From Anaerofustis stercorihominis DSM 17244 (GTDB taxonomy: Bacteria > Bacillota > Clostridia > Eubacteriales > Anaerofustaceae): a stretch of 64,000 bases of DNA. The notes under the pieces were generated by a model. It searched no databases and had not been told where the DNA came from. It was given only the letters and a program-made list of their open reading frames with translations. The stretch spans positions 972,501-1,036,500 of the forward strand of contig NZ_DS560019.1 in NCBI RefSeq assembly GCF_000154825.1, written 5' to 3'. Position numbers and translations under genes: made by a program. Shown one piece after another: positions 3,184-31,250 of the stretch (positions are counted from its first letter, which is position 1; the number at the start of each line of letters is the position of its first letter).

Positions 3184-4713
3184 ATGAAAATTATAAAAAA
3201 CCATCGAATACTTTTTATCGCAATAATACTTTTGATTGCTCTTATATTTTATATGTGTGCAAACAAAAATTATGAATCAAAAATTTTTCCTATGGGAACT
3301 AAGATAAATAATATTGATTGTTCCGGACTTACCGTAAATAAAGCGGAGAAAAAATTAACTAAGGAGTGGAATAAAAAGTCTTTTATTATTTTTGAGAGTA
3401 ATGCAAAAGATACAAAAACAATCCCTTTGATTTGGGATATAAAAGGAATTAAAAGTAATAATGAGAAATTGTCCAAAGATATACTAAAACATAATTTAAC
3501 TAATAATAAAGAAACTAAGGTATTGGCAGAATTATCCGGTTTAGGTATTACTTATGATATTAAGGATAAGCTTAACTCGGAACTGCATCCTAGTTTACTT
3601 AAATCTTTTTTAAGGAAAATACATATCATAAGCAATAATATTAGTGTATATATGGAAGTTAAAAAAGTTGATAAAACATTTGATAATCAATTTAATGACT
3701 TAAAAATATTTAAAGAATCGGATGATACAATAATCACTAAAAATGCATATATTGATTTGAATAGTGATAATTTTGATATTGTTAAAGAGGTTTATGGAAA
3801 TAATATAGATAAAGAATTGGTAAAAAGTACGATCTTAGATAACATATCTAAAGGCGAATTTAATTTGTATTATTCTAAAAAAGAATTTTATGATAATCCG
3901 GAAGTTATCTCCACAAATAAATTACTTTTAGAAGAGCAGGAATATCTGAAAAATCTAGAGTTTCCTGAAATAACTTATAAAATATATGGTAATACGGTAA
4001 AAATTAAAAAACAACAAATTTTGAAGATGTATGGTATTACACAAAAGAGTTTAAGTAAAAAAATAAATATTGATGATTTAAAAGTAAATAAGAAAGCCGT
4101 AGAACAATATGTACATAAGTTAACAGAGAAGTATGATACTGCATGGTCAGACCATGAATTTAATTCTACCAAGCAAGGTAAGATCACGGTGAGCGGCGGA
4201 GATTATGGGTATTTTATAGATGAAGATGAAGAAACTTCAAAATTGATTTCTATATTAAAGAAAAAGAAAAGTGTTGTCAGAACACCTATATATTCTCAAA
4301 AAGGATATAAAAATGCCAATGATATAGGAGATACTTATGTAGAAATCGATTTGACATATCAAACATTATGGCTTTATAAAGACGGTGAAATGGTTACAAG
4401 TAGTCCTATTGTTACCGGCAGTGTTGCATCAGGTTTTGCTACACCTCCGGGAGTATACATCCTTAAATATAAAACTATGCATACTACTCTTAAAGGAAAG
4501 AATGCCGATGGTACCGACTATGAAAGTCCCGTTACATATTGGATGCCTTTTAACGGAGGAATAGGTATGCATGATGCTACTTGGAGAAGTACCTTTGGGG
4601 GAAGTATATATTTAAGCGGCGGAAGTCACGGATGTGTTAATATGCCTTATGAGAAAGCGGGAATAGTGTATAGGAATATAACAGCAGGATTTCCTATCGT
4701 AGTACATTATTAA
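3184..4713 (+). CDS. L,D-transpeptidase (YkuD domain) with N-terminal peptidoglycan-binding-type region
   Basis: Membrane-anchored cell-wall enzyme of 509 aa that would make 3-3 peptide crosslinks in peptidoglycan or attach proteins to it. A positively charged start and one hydrophobic segment (about residues 8-26) form the anchor or signal. Residues about 30-370 form a long extracytoplasmic region of the kind found before clostridial YkuD domains. The YkuD domain fills the last ~130 residues: it begins near YVEIDLTYQTLWLYKDGE, has the conserved Gly-Met-His (GIGMHDATW), and ends with the catalytic SHGCVNMP motif with Cys near residue 484. The upstream ribosome binding site is weak. The gene stands alone between a promoter and a terminator. 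Confidence 0.9.
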   Translation: MKIIKNHRILFIAIILLIALIFYMCANKNYESKIFPMGTKINNIDCSGLTVNKAEKKLTKEWNKKSFIIFESNAKDTKTIPLIWDIKGIKSNNEKLSKDILKHNLTNNKETKVLAELSGLGITYDIKDKLNSELHPSLLKSFLRKIHIISNNISVYMEVKKVDKTFDNQFNDLKIFKESDDTIITKNAYIDLNSDNFDIVKEVYGNNIDKELVKSTILDNISKGEFNLYYSKKEFYDNPEVISTNKLLLEEQEYLKNLEFPEITYKIYGNTVKIKKQQILKMYGITQKSLSKKINIDDLKVNKKAVEQYVHKLTEKYDTAWSDHEFNSTKQGKITVSGGDYGYFIDEDEETSKLISILKKKKSVVRTPIYSQKGYKNANDIGDTYVEIDLTYQTLWLYKDGEMVTSSPIVTGSVASGFATPPGVYILKYKTMHTTLKGKNADGTDYESPVTYWMPFNGGIGMHDATWRSTFGGSIYLSGGSHGCVNMPYEKAGIVYRNITAGFPIVVHY

Positions 4714-4728
4714 ATATATTATAAAACT

Positions 4729-4773
4729 AAAATCGATATATAATTAATTGATAATTTTATATCGATTTTTTAT
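4729..4773 (+). terminator. Intrinsic terminator after the L,D-transpeptidase gene
   Basis: AAAATCGATATA (4729-4740) pairs with TATATCGATTTT (4758-4769), a 12-bp stem continuing into a T tract. The following 4774-4883 is AT-rich and holds nothing recognised. Confidence 0.85.
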
Positions 4774-4883
4774 ATGTTCTGGTATCTTTTTATTTATTTT
4801 TATAAGAAAACGAAAATAAAATACTCTATTTTTCTTTTCTTTGATTACTTATTAAAAAGTTTAAATAAATTTTTAATAAACAC

Positions 4884-4912
4884 TTGAAAACGTATAGCAT
4901 TTTGCATATAAT
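4884..4912 (+). promoter_or_regulatory. Strong sigma-A promoter of the putative large ncRNA
   Basis: TTGAAA (4884-4889), a 17-base spacer and perfect TATAAT (4907-4912). Transcription should start near 4919. No open reading frame with a ribosome binding site follows before the terminator at 5731-5764. Confidence 0.75.
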
Positions 4913-4918
4913 ATAAAT

Positions 4919-5764
4919 ATAGAAAACGTTAACAAGTCATGAAGGTCATGACAGCAACTAAAAGTTATTTGAAAAATAAAAAGTTGCATTTAATTTTATT
5001 TATATATTTCGATACTGTAAAGGAAGTAAAGAAATAATGGTTAAATAGATTTATTTAATATTTATTTATGATACCTGAAAAAAGCACTTAGAAATAATTA
5101 AGAGTAAAGATGTATAAGTTCATCGAAATTAAGAAAGGAAAAGTGGAAATTTAGGTATATGGAAAATATTAAAACTATATTTATTCAGAAGTATAGAAAT
5201 CTAAAAGACTTAAATAAATTAAATATTGTGTAACGTTTAGGCTGAAAATCCAAAATGTATGGAGAAGAAAAAATAAAATGTTGAAATAAACATTATAAAA
5301 AATCTTTTCAAAATAAAGTACATGAAGGATTAATATAAGCGGATACATAGGAGGTAATATAAAAGGCACTAATAAAAAAGAGATTTGTAACAGGGCGGTA
5401 AGTGCGGGAGGCACAAAATAATTAATTATATATATGGAGACGAGTAAATCTCCAAAGAAGTAAGATTAAAAAATAGTTAATCGGAAGAATAGTTGGTTGT
5501 AAGAAAAATAAAACCTGTTATAAAAGAAAAATAGGATAGTAGTTAAATAAAAATTTATGCAATTGGGTAGTAAGTCGGAGGTGAAGATCGTAAAAGTAAC
5601 CGAAGACCGAAGATATTGTAAGTAAAATGTTGGAATGTAGATAAAAAAACTACTATAAAATGCCAGATTATATTACGAAACTTGTTGAAGCTTATGAACG
5701 AGTGTTAAGTTACAGCTTAATACAAATCGAAAGAGGAACCGGAATAAACCGGTTCTTCTTTTTT
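4919..5764 (+). ncRNA. Putative large structured non-coding RNA, about 845 nt, family unknown
   Basis: This stretch is bounded by a near-consensus promoter and a strong terminator but encodes no plausible protein in either direction. The + strand is strikingly purine-rich (A much above G, few C), typical of an RNA with A-rich loops. Local helices are visible: 4936-4941/4947-4952; 4954-4959/4981-4986 enclosing a TTATTT-GAA-AAATAA hairpin; 5071-5076/5153-5158 enclosing 5085-5089/5141-5145 and 5109-5112/5121-5124; 5366-5370/5401-5405; 5435-5440/5449-5454; 5464-5469/5477-5482; 5636-5639/5650-5653. A possible domain-closing pairing joins 4924-4931 with 5231-5238. It is not RNase P RNA, tmRNA, SRP RNA or a group II intron by their conserved cores. 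It could belong to the large ornate families (ROOL, GOLLD, OLE and similar) or be new; I cannot decide by eye. Confidence 0.6.
5731..5764 (+). terminator. Strong intrinsic terminator of the putative ncRNA
   Basis: AAGAGGAACCGG (5731-5742) pairs with CCGGTTCTTCTT (5749-5760), 12 bp with one G-U pair and a 6-base loop, running into TTTT. It is among the strongest terminators in the window although no gene lies upstream of it for about 1 kb. Confidence 0.92.
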
Positions 5765-5821
5765 ATTAAACATCATAGTGGTTATAGGTTACATGATAAT
5801 AAGTAATTTTATAAAAATAAC

Positions 5822-5850
5822 TTTACAAGTAACCTGATTAGGTATATAAT
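5822..5850 (+). promoter_or_regulatory. Sigma-A promoter of the c-di-GMP riboswitch transcript
   Basis: TTTACA (5822-5827), 17-base spacer and TATAAT (5845-5850). Predicted start near 5857, about ten bases before the riboswitch aptamer, so the leader is essentially the riboswitch. Confidence 0.78.
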
Positions 5851-5865
5851 TAATATACAATTAAA

Positions 5866-5934
5866 TATGGGCAAAACTGTGGAAACACAGTGACGCAAAA
5901 CTATAGGGCCTGTAAAATGGCAGCCAGTTGCATT
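5866..5934 (+). promoter_or_regulatory. Cyclic-di-GMP-I (GEMM) riboswitch
   Basis: The aptamer matches the GEMM-I core in order: GGGCAAA (5869-5875), a P1b hairpin ACTGTG-GAAA-CACAGT with its GNRA tetraloop, GACGCAAA (5892-5899), GGGCCT (5906-5911) and GGCAGCC (5919-5925) followed by the closing GTTGC. The middle G of the GGG is retained; the family variant that senses 3',3'-cGAMP carries A there, so c-di-GMP is the likely ligand. No T tract lies between aptamer and gene. TCTTAC (5952-5957) can pair with GTAAGA (5986-5981), covering part of the ribosome binding site, which suggests control of translation initiation. The direction of the switch cannot be read. Confidence 0.93.
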
Positions 5935-5989
5935 CAGTTCTAATAGAATTGTCTTACTAATTGAATTAATTTTGAATGAGGTAAGAAAA

Positions 5990-7210
5990 ATGATTAGCAA
6001 GAATGACAAATGTTTAAAAAGTAAAAAAAGTATTGCGTTACTTCTGATTTTATTATTAATAGGTTTTGCTGTTGTATTTCCTAATTTTATGGGTAACAGC
6101 AAAGTAAGTGAAAATGTATCTATTGAAGATAATAAAACACCATTAGCATCAGGAGAAAATACAAGTAAGAGTACCTATGCCAATAATGGTTCAACATCTG
6201 ATATGAACGTTGAATTTGTTAATAATAATGCTGTGGCAACATTGAATTCTGTAGGCAGAGTTTCTTTTAATAGCACTCTAAATACTGTAAAATCAGTATC
6301 TACTGAAAATAATAATGTTGTTAATCCTAATGTTATCGGTAACGATGTTATTGTACCTTCTGATTTAAATGAGGAAGAAGTACAACCTGAACAACCTTCT
6401 GACTCTGAACAAGAAGCAGTAGTACCATCCGAACCTGAACAACCGGAACTATCAGACAAAGAAGAAACACAACAACCTGAAGAACCTTCTAAACCTGCTT
6501 TGACAGCAAAAGACGGAATTGAATGGTTAGAAAAACAACTTAATACTAAAGGATCTGATTTGTATAATTATTTCCATGGCGGCAAAGGCGATACGTTTAA
6601 TGGATCATTGGATTCAAACGGATATAATTTTGCACCAAATGAAAACGAAGCTTTATTAAAAGAATTTGGTTTAGATAATATGGATAGTATTACATATAGG
6701 ATCTGGAAGGACAAATCAAACGGTCAATACAATATTTTCTGGGCAGACTGCGGAATCAAAAATAACGGTAACGGTGATTCTATCGAAAGTACTGTAACAA
6801 AATATAATACTAAGGATAAAGTATATATTGAAGGAACAGCTACAGTTACAGTTAAAAATGACGGTAAAGATAATTTATGTACTATAGACGGTTCCAGTTT
6901 TAAAGAAAAAGAAGCAACAAAAGAAGAAAAAGATATTAAATCTGTTAAAACTGTAAAAACTATAGGACAAGAAAATATCAATGAAGAAAAAACAGCTATA
7001 GAAAATGAAAAGAAAGCTGACACTGAACAAGTTACAAATGAAAATAATATTTCTGATAAAGAAGTAACGGAAGTTGAAAGTGTTAACGAAGACGCAAAAG
7101 TATCAGTTGAAAATGATACTGAAGAAACTATGACAGAAGAAACATCTGAACAAATAGAAAATGTTGTAGAAAACCAAAATGCTGATTTAGTTATTGCAGA
7201 AATGGAATAA
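5990..7210 (+). CDS. c-di-GMP-riboswitch-controlled secreted acidic protein, function unknown
   Basis: Predicted 406-aa exported or membrane-anchored protein. The start is ATG at 5990, seven bases after GAGGT; an in-frame TTG at 5972 lies upstream of that site and is rejected. A Lys-rich N-terminus precedes one hydrophobic segment (about residues 13-31). A Ser/Asn-rich stretch follows, then a Glu/Pro/Gln-rich linker (about 120-165, repeated EPEQP/QPEEP units). A compact globular region comes next (about 165-305; WLEKQL, YRIWKD, FWADCG) with two cysteines that could pair. The last ~100 residues are a highly acidic, Glu-rich low-complexity tail. No LPXTG sorting motif or known domain is seen. 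Control by the upstream c-di-GMP switch suggests a role in surface adhesion, biofilm or motility choice; that is inference. Confidence 0.8.
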   Translation: MISKNDKCLKSKKSIALLLILLLIGFAVVFPNFMGNSKVSENVSIEDNKTPLASGENTSKSTYANNGSTSDMNVEFVNNNAVATLNSVGRVSFNSTLNTVKSVSTENNNVVNPNVIGNDVIVPSDLNEEEVQPEQPSDSEQEAVVPSEPEQPELSDKEETQQPEEPSKPALTAKDGIEWLEKQLNTKGSDLYNYFHGGKGDTFNGSLDSNGYNFAPNENEALLKEFGLDNMDSITYRIWKDKSNGQYNIFWADCGIKNNGNGDSIESTVTKYNTKDKVYIEGTATVTVKNDGKDNLCTIDGSSFKEKEATKEEKDIKSVKTVKTIGQENINEEKTAIENEKKADTEQVTNENNISDKEVTEVESVNEDAKVSVENDTEETMTEETSEQIENVVENQNADLVIAEME

Positions 7211-31067: not shown

Positions 31068-31250
31068 GCTATGACAAAAAGGAATGCGTTGAAGCGGGAG
31101 GTTGCCGTGAGAACGGGTTTTTCCGTGGAGTATGTCACCATCTAGAATGGGGCGGCATGCTTGATGTTTTTGTGTGACTTTTCTACATGTGAAACACACG
31201 GAACAGTGTATCAAGTATGGTCGTACTGGCGAATCAAGATTTCAGGAGGA
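31068..31250 (+). promoter_or_regulatory. Structured 5' leader of the S10 operon, candidate autoregulatory element
   Basis: About 180 bases of GC-richer sequence between promoter and rpsJ. CTTGAT (31160-31165) pairs with ATCAAG (31210-31215), enclosing GTGTG (31172-31176)/CACAC (31195-31199); ACGG/CCGT and GCATGC-containing segments upstream suggest more helices. Long structured leaders of S10 operons often bind a ribosomal protein (uL4 in E. coli); which one, if any, binds here is unknown. No T tract is seen, so it would act on translation or stability. Confidence 0.5.

Follow-up and report, generated by a model that had tools for sequence, protein, structure and literature searches.

Introduction

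Few bacterial RNAs approach the size and complexity of the one considered here. The best described are GOLLD, ROOL and OLE, which, according to the excerpted text of a cryo-EM study, form large homo-oligomeric complexes without protein and make extensive A-minor contacts (PMC12286853); further literature considered here is PMC11109978, PMC8040213 and PMC5643018.

Our study reports on a locus in a gut bacterium of the genus Anaerofustis (Eubacteriales), found in a stretch of 64,000 nucleotides (the window) within a genome of 2.28 Mb, labelled G000. We consider it probable, if not secure, that positions 4919-5764 of the window form a gene of their own, the product of which would be a large, structured noncoding RNA, folded and acting in trans, perhaps in a scaffold or an assembly, and present, as far as seen, in some Anaerofustis only. 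The parts of this explanation differ in strength: we hold it highly probable that the RNA is structured, while its role in a scaffold or assembly is put forward tentatively. Judged by titles and the opening lines of abstracts, none of the papers found for Anaerofustis on noncoding RNA, RNA-seq or riboswitches appears to concern this RNA.

Locus and predicted anatomy

Between an L,D-transpeptidase gene and a gene preceded by a c-di-GMP-I riboswitch there is an apparently complete transcription unit, consisting of a promoter-like site, about 846 bases and a terminator hairpin (Table 1). Transcription is predicted to start near 4919, and the promoter and terminator suggest that the unit would yield a single transcript of about 846 nt. 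An earlier note on this DNA, made from the letters alone, had described a TTGAAA-17-TATAAT promoter and a place upstream of a c-di-GMP riboswitch gene, both of which are borne out, and a 12-bp terminator, the stem of which is present and reaches 14 bp in the computed fold. A promoter scan of the region returned nine sites against a shuffle mean of 9.4; as this total shows no excess, the promoter claim rests on the quality of the match, its place and its conservation. The consensus terminator scan of the same region reported none, the hairpin at 5729-5764 included, a silence that we put down to the stem extending into the T-run.

Table 1. Positions in the window of the proposed RNA, its predicted parts and its neighbours. 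G002 is the genome of the second species.
Feature	Position	Strand	Evidence
L,D-transpeptidase gene, upstream neighbour	3184..4713	+	Pfam YkuD, E 6e-20
Hairpin with T-run ending the L,D-transpeptidase gene	4729-4771	+	Read from the sequence
Promoter-like site, TTGAAA-17-TATAAT	4884..4912	+	11/12 match; 0 changes in 29 aligned bases in G002
Proposed noncoding RNA, about 846 nt	4919..5764	+	Fold z -10.0 (200 shuffles); 213 pairs in common with the homologue's own fold
Domain I	4924..5238	+	12-bp closing helix 4924-4935/5226-5238; z -7.04 for 4919-5240; in both folds; 3 double compensatory changes
Domain II, long interrupted hairpin	5247..5331	+	Helices in both folds; 2 changes in 101 bases over 5236-5336
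Domain III	5334..5696	+	Closed by 5334-5339/5691-5696 and 5354-5362/5668-5676; holds IIIa and IIIb; helices in both folds
Core IIIa	5384..5524	+	11-bp helix around GGGCGGUAAGUGCGGGAGGCAC, 12-bp helix, three hairpins; basis of model R1
Arm IIIb	5536..5656	+	Closed by 9 bp, 5536-5544/5648-5656
Hairpin of 8 bp ahead of the terminator	5702..5723	+	One pair-keeping change
Terminator-like hairpin with T-run	5729..5764	+	14-bp stem 5729-5742/5749-5762 in the folds of both species
Promoter-like site of the riboswitch gene	5822-5850	+	11/12 match
c-di-GMP-I riboswitch of the downstream gene	5860..5935	+	Rfam, 61.2 bits

Within domain I the fold places two hairpins near the 5' end, side branches and a long arm that includes an interrupted helix of 21 bp (5054-5076/5153-5173). 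The closure of this domain, raised in the earlier note as a possible pairing of 4924-4931 with 5231-5238, is real and longer than supposed, and where at least eight local helices had been seen, the folds of the two species have 26 helices of at least 4 bp in common, with one more when the better alignment is used. The fold of 5545-5647 within domain III is unsettled; in this part of the RNA the second species carries an 8-base insertion of a repeated AAGTAAAT/AAGTAAG-like unit (L002 2220-2260 against window 5590-5640). A complementarity search within the RNA for pseudoknot or loop-loop candidates of at least 5 bp with three G-C pairs found none and is of no help to the assembly reading. Elsewhere in the window, an S10-Clostridia ribosomal protein leader is found at 31081-31158 (51.9 bits).

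Fold energy and comparison with a second species

The plus strand of the RNA folds at -185.2 kcal/mol, with a z of -7.87 against 20 shuffles and a lower value still against 200 (Table 1). Taken alone, 4919-5240 and 5240-5726 (z -6.54) are each more stable than all of 100 shuffles. The same kind of test gave z -3.5 for the OLE RNA of this genome, and -2.6 and -0.1 for two coding controls of 846 bases. The minus strand, too, is more stable than its shuffles (z -8.56), although it reaches only -133.2 kcal/mol, which is as expected from inverted repeats that use G-U pairs on the plus strand.

The homologue in G002, a genome of the same genus, has the same gene on either side as the window RNA, with which it shares 91.8% identity across 842 aligned bases. 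Sequence identity alone is not decisive, because the spacer 4714-4883 is itself 87.6% identical; the spacer 5765-5821 stands at 75.5%. Identity at four-fold degenerate sites is 61% in the L,D-transpeptidase gene and 72% in the dehydrogenase gene, and ranges from 55 to 91% over 21 frame pairs, several of which are spurious antisense frames. The spacer ahead of the promoter is AT-rich and may hold more regulatory sequence.

The separately computed folds of the window RNA (250 pairs) and the homologue (255 pairs) have 213 pairs in common, against a mean of 36 (sd 18) and a maximum of 113 in 200 shuffled control RNAs, each given 77 substitutions of the same kinds and no indels. When the window fold is laid on the homologue, 222 of the 249 evaluable pairs are unchanged, 16 keep their pairing with one partner changed, four do so with both partners changed (5009:5032, 5010:5031, 5074:5155 and 5365:5664), and seven are broken. 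Permuting the substitutions within base and pairing class 5000 times gave an expectation of 0.74 double compensatory changes (P 0.003) and of 14.1 broken pairs, with no permutation showing as few as were observed; this covariation rests on two sequences and is below R-scape grade. These counts come from a sequence-only alignment that puts the ACTACTAT arm in register; the first alignment, misregistered near 5640-5660, gave weaker ones (204 shared pairs, four double changes with 0.89 expected, 14 broken pairs with 20.5 expected). Among the changed Watson-Crick pairs, nine are kept only on the plus strand and two only on the minus strand, with four kept on both and two on neither.

The search for homologues with conserved helices that had been proposed for this locus has thus yielded one, in the same intergenic place, with its helices kept and four double compensatory changes. 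The locus has a promoter-like site and a terminator of its own, has no credible coding sequence, and has a multi-domain fold (domains I, II and III, a hairpin and the terminator) that is kept in the second species. Fold energy, the agreement of the folds of two species and the pair-keeping changes together give good support to its identity as a large structured noncoding RNA.

Distribution

A DNA search of 61 relatives with the whole element gave long matches only in the genome itself and in G002; ten other genomes showed no more than short patches (21-67 nt). In 13 family genomes it gave the same two and a 33-nt patch in G001. Two covariance models were built, R1 from core IIIa and R2 from domain II. 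The short patches were set aside after R1, run over 63 loci, found only locus L061, the next best reaching 16.3 bits (E 0.39). At the limits used, R1 hits fell in 2 of 67 genomes of the order, 1 of 391 of the class and 1 of 398 of the phylum, always the genome itself or G002; the draws from the class and phylum were made with stricter filters and 7-8 candidates scored per genome, so that a distant relative could be missed. Among 39 relatives R2 matched G000, G002 and, weakly, G008 (22.7 bits, E 0.75). From G001, which belongs to the same genus, the element is absent by R1, R2 and synteny.

A scan of a genome collection with GGGCGGTAAGTGCNNNNNGCAC returned 15 hits, all of which were checked with R1 and one of which is real: L061, the same place in Anaerofustis (NZ_JANJZK010000009.1, Anaerofustis stercorihominis DSM 28733). 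With laxer filters, R1 gave five more hits at 15.7-19.2 bits in the 13 family genomes, which we take as noise: L072 lies in a long tRNA-synthetase-like frame, L074 in a long frame and L073 across the end of a frame, and L075 (in G000) and L076 score in the same range.

Phage and plasmid records gave no blastn match to the element. Seven patterns were scanned over viral contigs, five of them without any match, while a 14-base pattern gave at least 120 loci and a 16-base pattern five. R1, run over 85 of 125 such loci, made one hit (17.2 bits, E 0.57), and blastn over all 125 made one 26-base match, at L147, inside a 469-aa phage frame that we take to be a terminase; both are regarded as chance.

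As far as seen, then, the RNA appears to be lineage-restricted, occurring in some Anaerofustis only (two genomes). The protein encoded behind the riboswitch (5990-7210) has no Pfam match and is probably a secreted, c-di-GMP-controlled protein of narrow range: it finds matches in four of the 61 relatives, namely G000, G002 and a further two, where 32% identity extends over part of its length. It is absent from G001, and at 63% between the two species it diverges quickly. A narrow range is common to the RNA and this downstream gene, two genomes being too few for a functional link.

Alternative explanations

The strong A-bias and scarcity of C remarked on in the earlier note are confirmed at 45.5% A and 8.2% C, and are in large part a consequence of the positions left unpaired in the fold, which are 62.7% A and 2.9% C; the intergenic stretches of the window are A-rich in general. 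Such unpaired segments could be the working parts of a trans-acting regulatory RNA, which would pair with mRNAs or titrate a protein through its A-rich and G-rich single strands (AGGAGG at 5349-5354, GGAGG at 5577-5581) and would be folded mainly for stability. The stand-alone promoter and terminator suit this explanation, as do the many unpaired purine-rich segments that are unchanged between the species. However, with so little unpaired C there would be few targets that could be bound by G-C pairs from both sides, and base-pairing RNAs are usually far shorter and less folded than this one. We regard a regulatory RNA of this kind as unlikely.

The RNA might also be a strongly diverged ROOL, GOLLD or other catalogued large RNA, too distant for the Rfam models to detect. 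Across the RNA region every Rfam family stays below its gathering score. Up to E 10 there are 11 weak matches in the window RNA, of which nine cover the terminator at the 3' end, and six in the G002 homologue, all at the 3' end; every one is below its gathering score, and we take them as chance. None, in the window RNA or the homologue, is to ROOL, GOLLD, OLE or group II introns, GOLLD being presumably among the 4227 models searched. A ROOL covariance search of the whole genome was negative, as it was in 14 control genomes, so that this result is weak alone. The whole-genome OLE search found only a separate locus, a genuine OLE RNA at G000:C1:666696-667310 (L084:1501-2115; 456.3 bits, E 8.2e-133). 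There are no tRNA genes in the window, and none of the seven neighbouring proteins has a phage-like Pfam match, two of them having no Pfam match at all. A similar size (for the known families, as given in the excerpted PMC12286853), a stand-alone gene and a complex fold speak for a diverged relative; the silence of the models up to E 10 in two species, the negative ROOL search with its equally silent controls and the lack of tRNA or recognizable phage neighbours speak against it, and we find it improbable. The earlier note had left the choice between a known large-RNA family and a new one: the Rfam check that it named for ROOL, GOLLD and OLE came back without a match at the locus or its homologue, and a new RNA is the reading left.

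It is more improbable still that the transcript is the mRNA of a small protein, or an RNA of dual function. The candidates are a 14-codon ATG frame on the plus strand (5110-5154), inside domain I, which is uninterrupted in both species with a difference in the last residue alone, and a hydrophobic 77-aa GTG frame on the minus strand (5181-5414) that appears in the list of open reading frames. Against them stand the 25, 28 and 25 stops in the three plus-strand frames of 4919-5764, indels of 1, 4, 1 and 8 bases between the species, of which the first two shift the start of the minus-strand frame in G002, the want of a clear ribosome-binding site before 5110, and a fold far stronger than that of the two coding controls. 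The longest open stretch on the plus strand, 41 codons, is open in both species, and the alignment offers it no usable start common to the two. The lack of a credible coding sequence, already remarked on in the earlier note, is therefore upheld by the stops, the indels and the missing shared starts.

Least credible of all is a group II intron derivative or remnant, notably a circularly permuted group II RNA (about 900 nt, without an ORF and with GGGCG at the 5' splice site in the excerpted PMC8637638), which we reject: the length and absence of an ORF are comparable and a GGGCG in core IIIa (5392-5397 region) resembles that splice-site consensus, but this five-base segment, of the boundary segments GGGCG and AY/NU, is weak by itself, the group II models give no match up to E 10, no D5-like hairpin occurs in the window with up to three mispairs allowed, the two low-grade ones in G002 compare with a shuffle mean of 0.8, and a domain I of 315 nt is at odds with a 5' end formed by D5-D6.

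Comparison with known large RNAs

The model that we favour is a folded structural RNA that would act in trans. If large RNAs of comparable size are a guide, it would most likely provide the scaffold for a particle of RNA and protein or for an RNA-only assembly, and its A-rich unpaired joints would be free for tertiary or subunit contacts; the predominance of A among the unpaired positions would suit A-minor contacts. That it represents a new class of large RNA, unrelated to OLE, ROOL and GOLLD and assembling in Anaerofustis into a particle of RNA, with or without protein, is possible but doubtful as a complete proposition. If it were so, Anaerofustis would keep two unrelated large RNAs, the new one and OLE, in a single 2.3-Mb genome.

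The RNA fits no family tested, and its likeness to described systems is one of size and architecture. OLE (RF01071) is, like it, a large, structured, stand-alone RNA of Clostridia, and is present in the same genome; there is no match to the OLE model at the locus, and the RNA described here exceeds OLE in length and contains far more A and less C. GOLLD has about 800 nt and more and a complex fold, but belongs, according to the same excerpted source, to phage and prophage genomes and is often located close to tRNA islands (PMC12286853), whereas the window holds no tRNA and the locus does not match its model. ROOL (RF03087, 574 positions) is again a stand-alone large RNA with many helices; it is shorter, is found in a phage or prophage context in that excerpt (PMC12286853), and matches neither at the locus nor elsewhere in the genome. 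The circularly permuted group II RNA (T-large) shares a length of about 900 nt, the absence of an ORF and a GGGCG segment, as described in the excerpted PMC8637638, while our RNA shows no D5-like hairpin and no group II model match. A further parallel is the 520-nt lncRNA of Lactobacillus salivarius, which is likewise long, noncoding and confined to one lineage, with a function that was not found; it differs in being megaplasmid-borne and in its presence in 34 of 45 genomes from that species (both according to the excerpted PMC5643018).

In size and complexity the RNA is thus of the same kind as OLE, ROOL and GOLLD, with no evidence of common descent, and it may be that two unrelated large RNAs can coexist in one genome. 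Another such RNA, unrelated to the rest, strongly folded by computation and unmatched in Rfam, would enlarge the set formed by GOLLD, ROOL and OLE, and would suggest that more large RNAs are hidden in single lineages, outside the reach of family-based searches.
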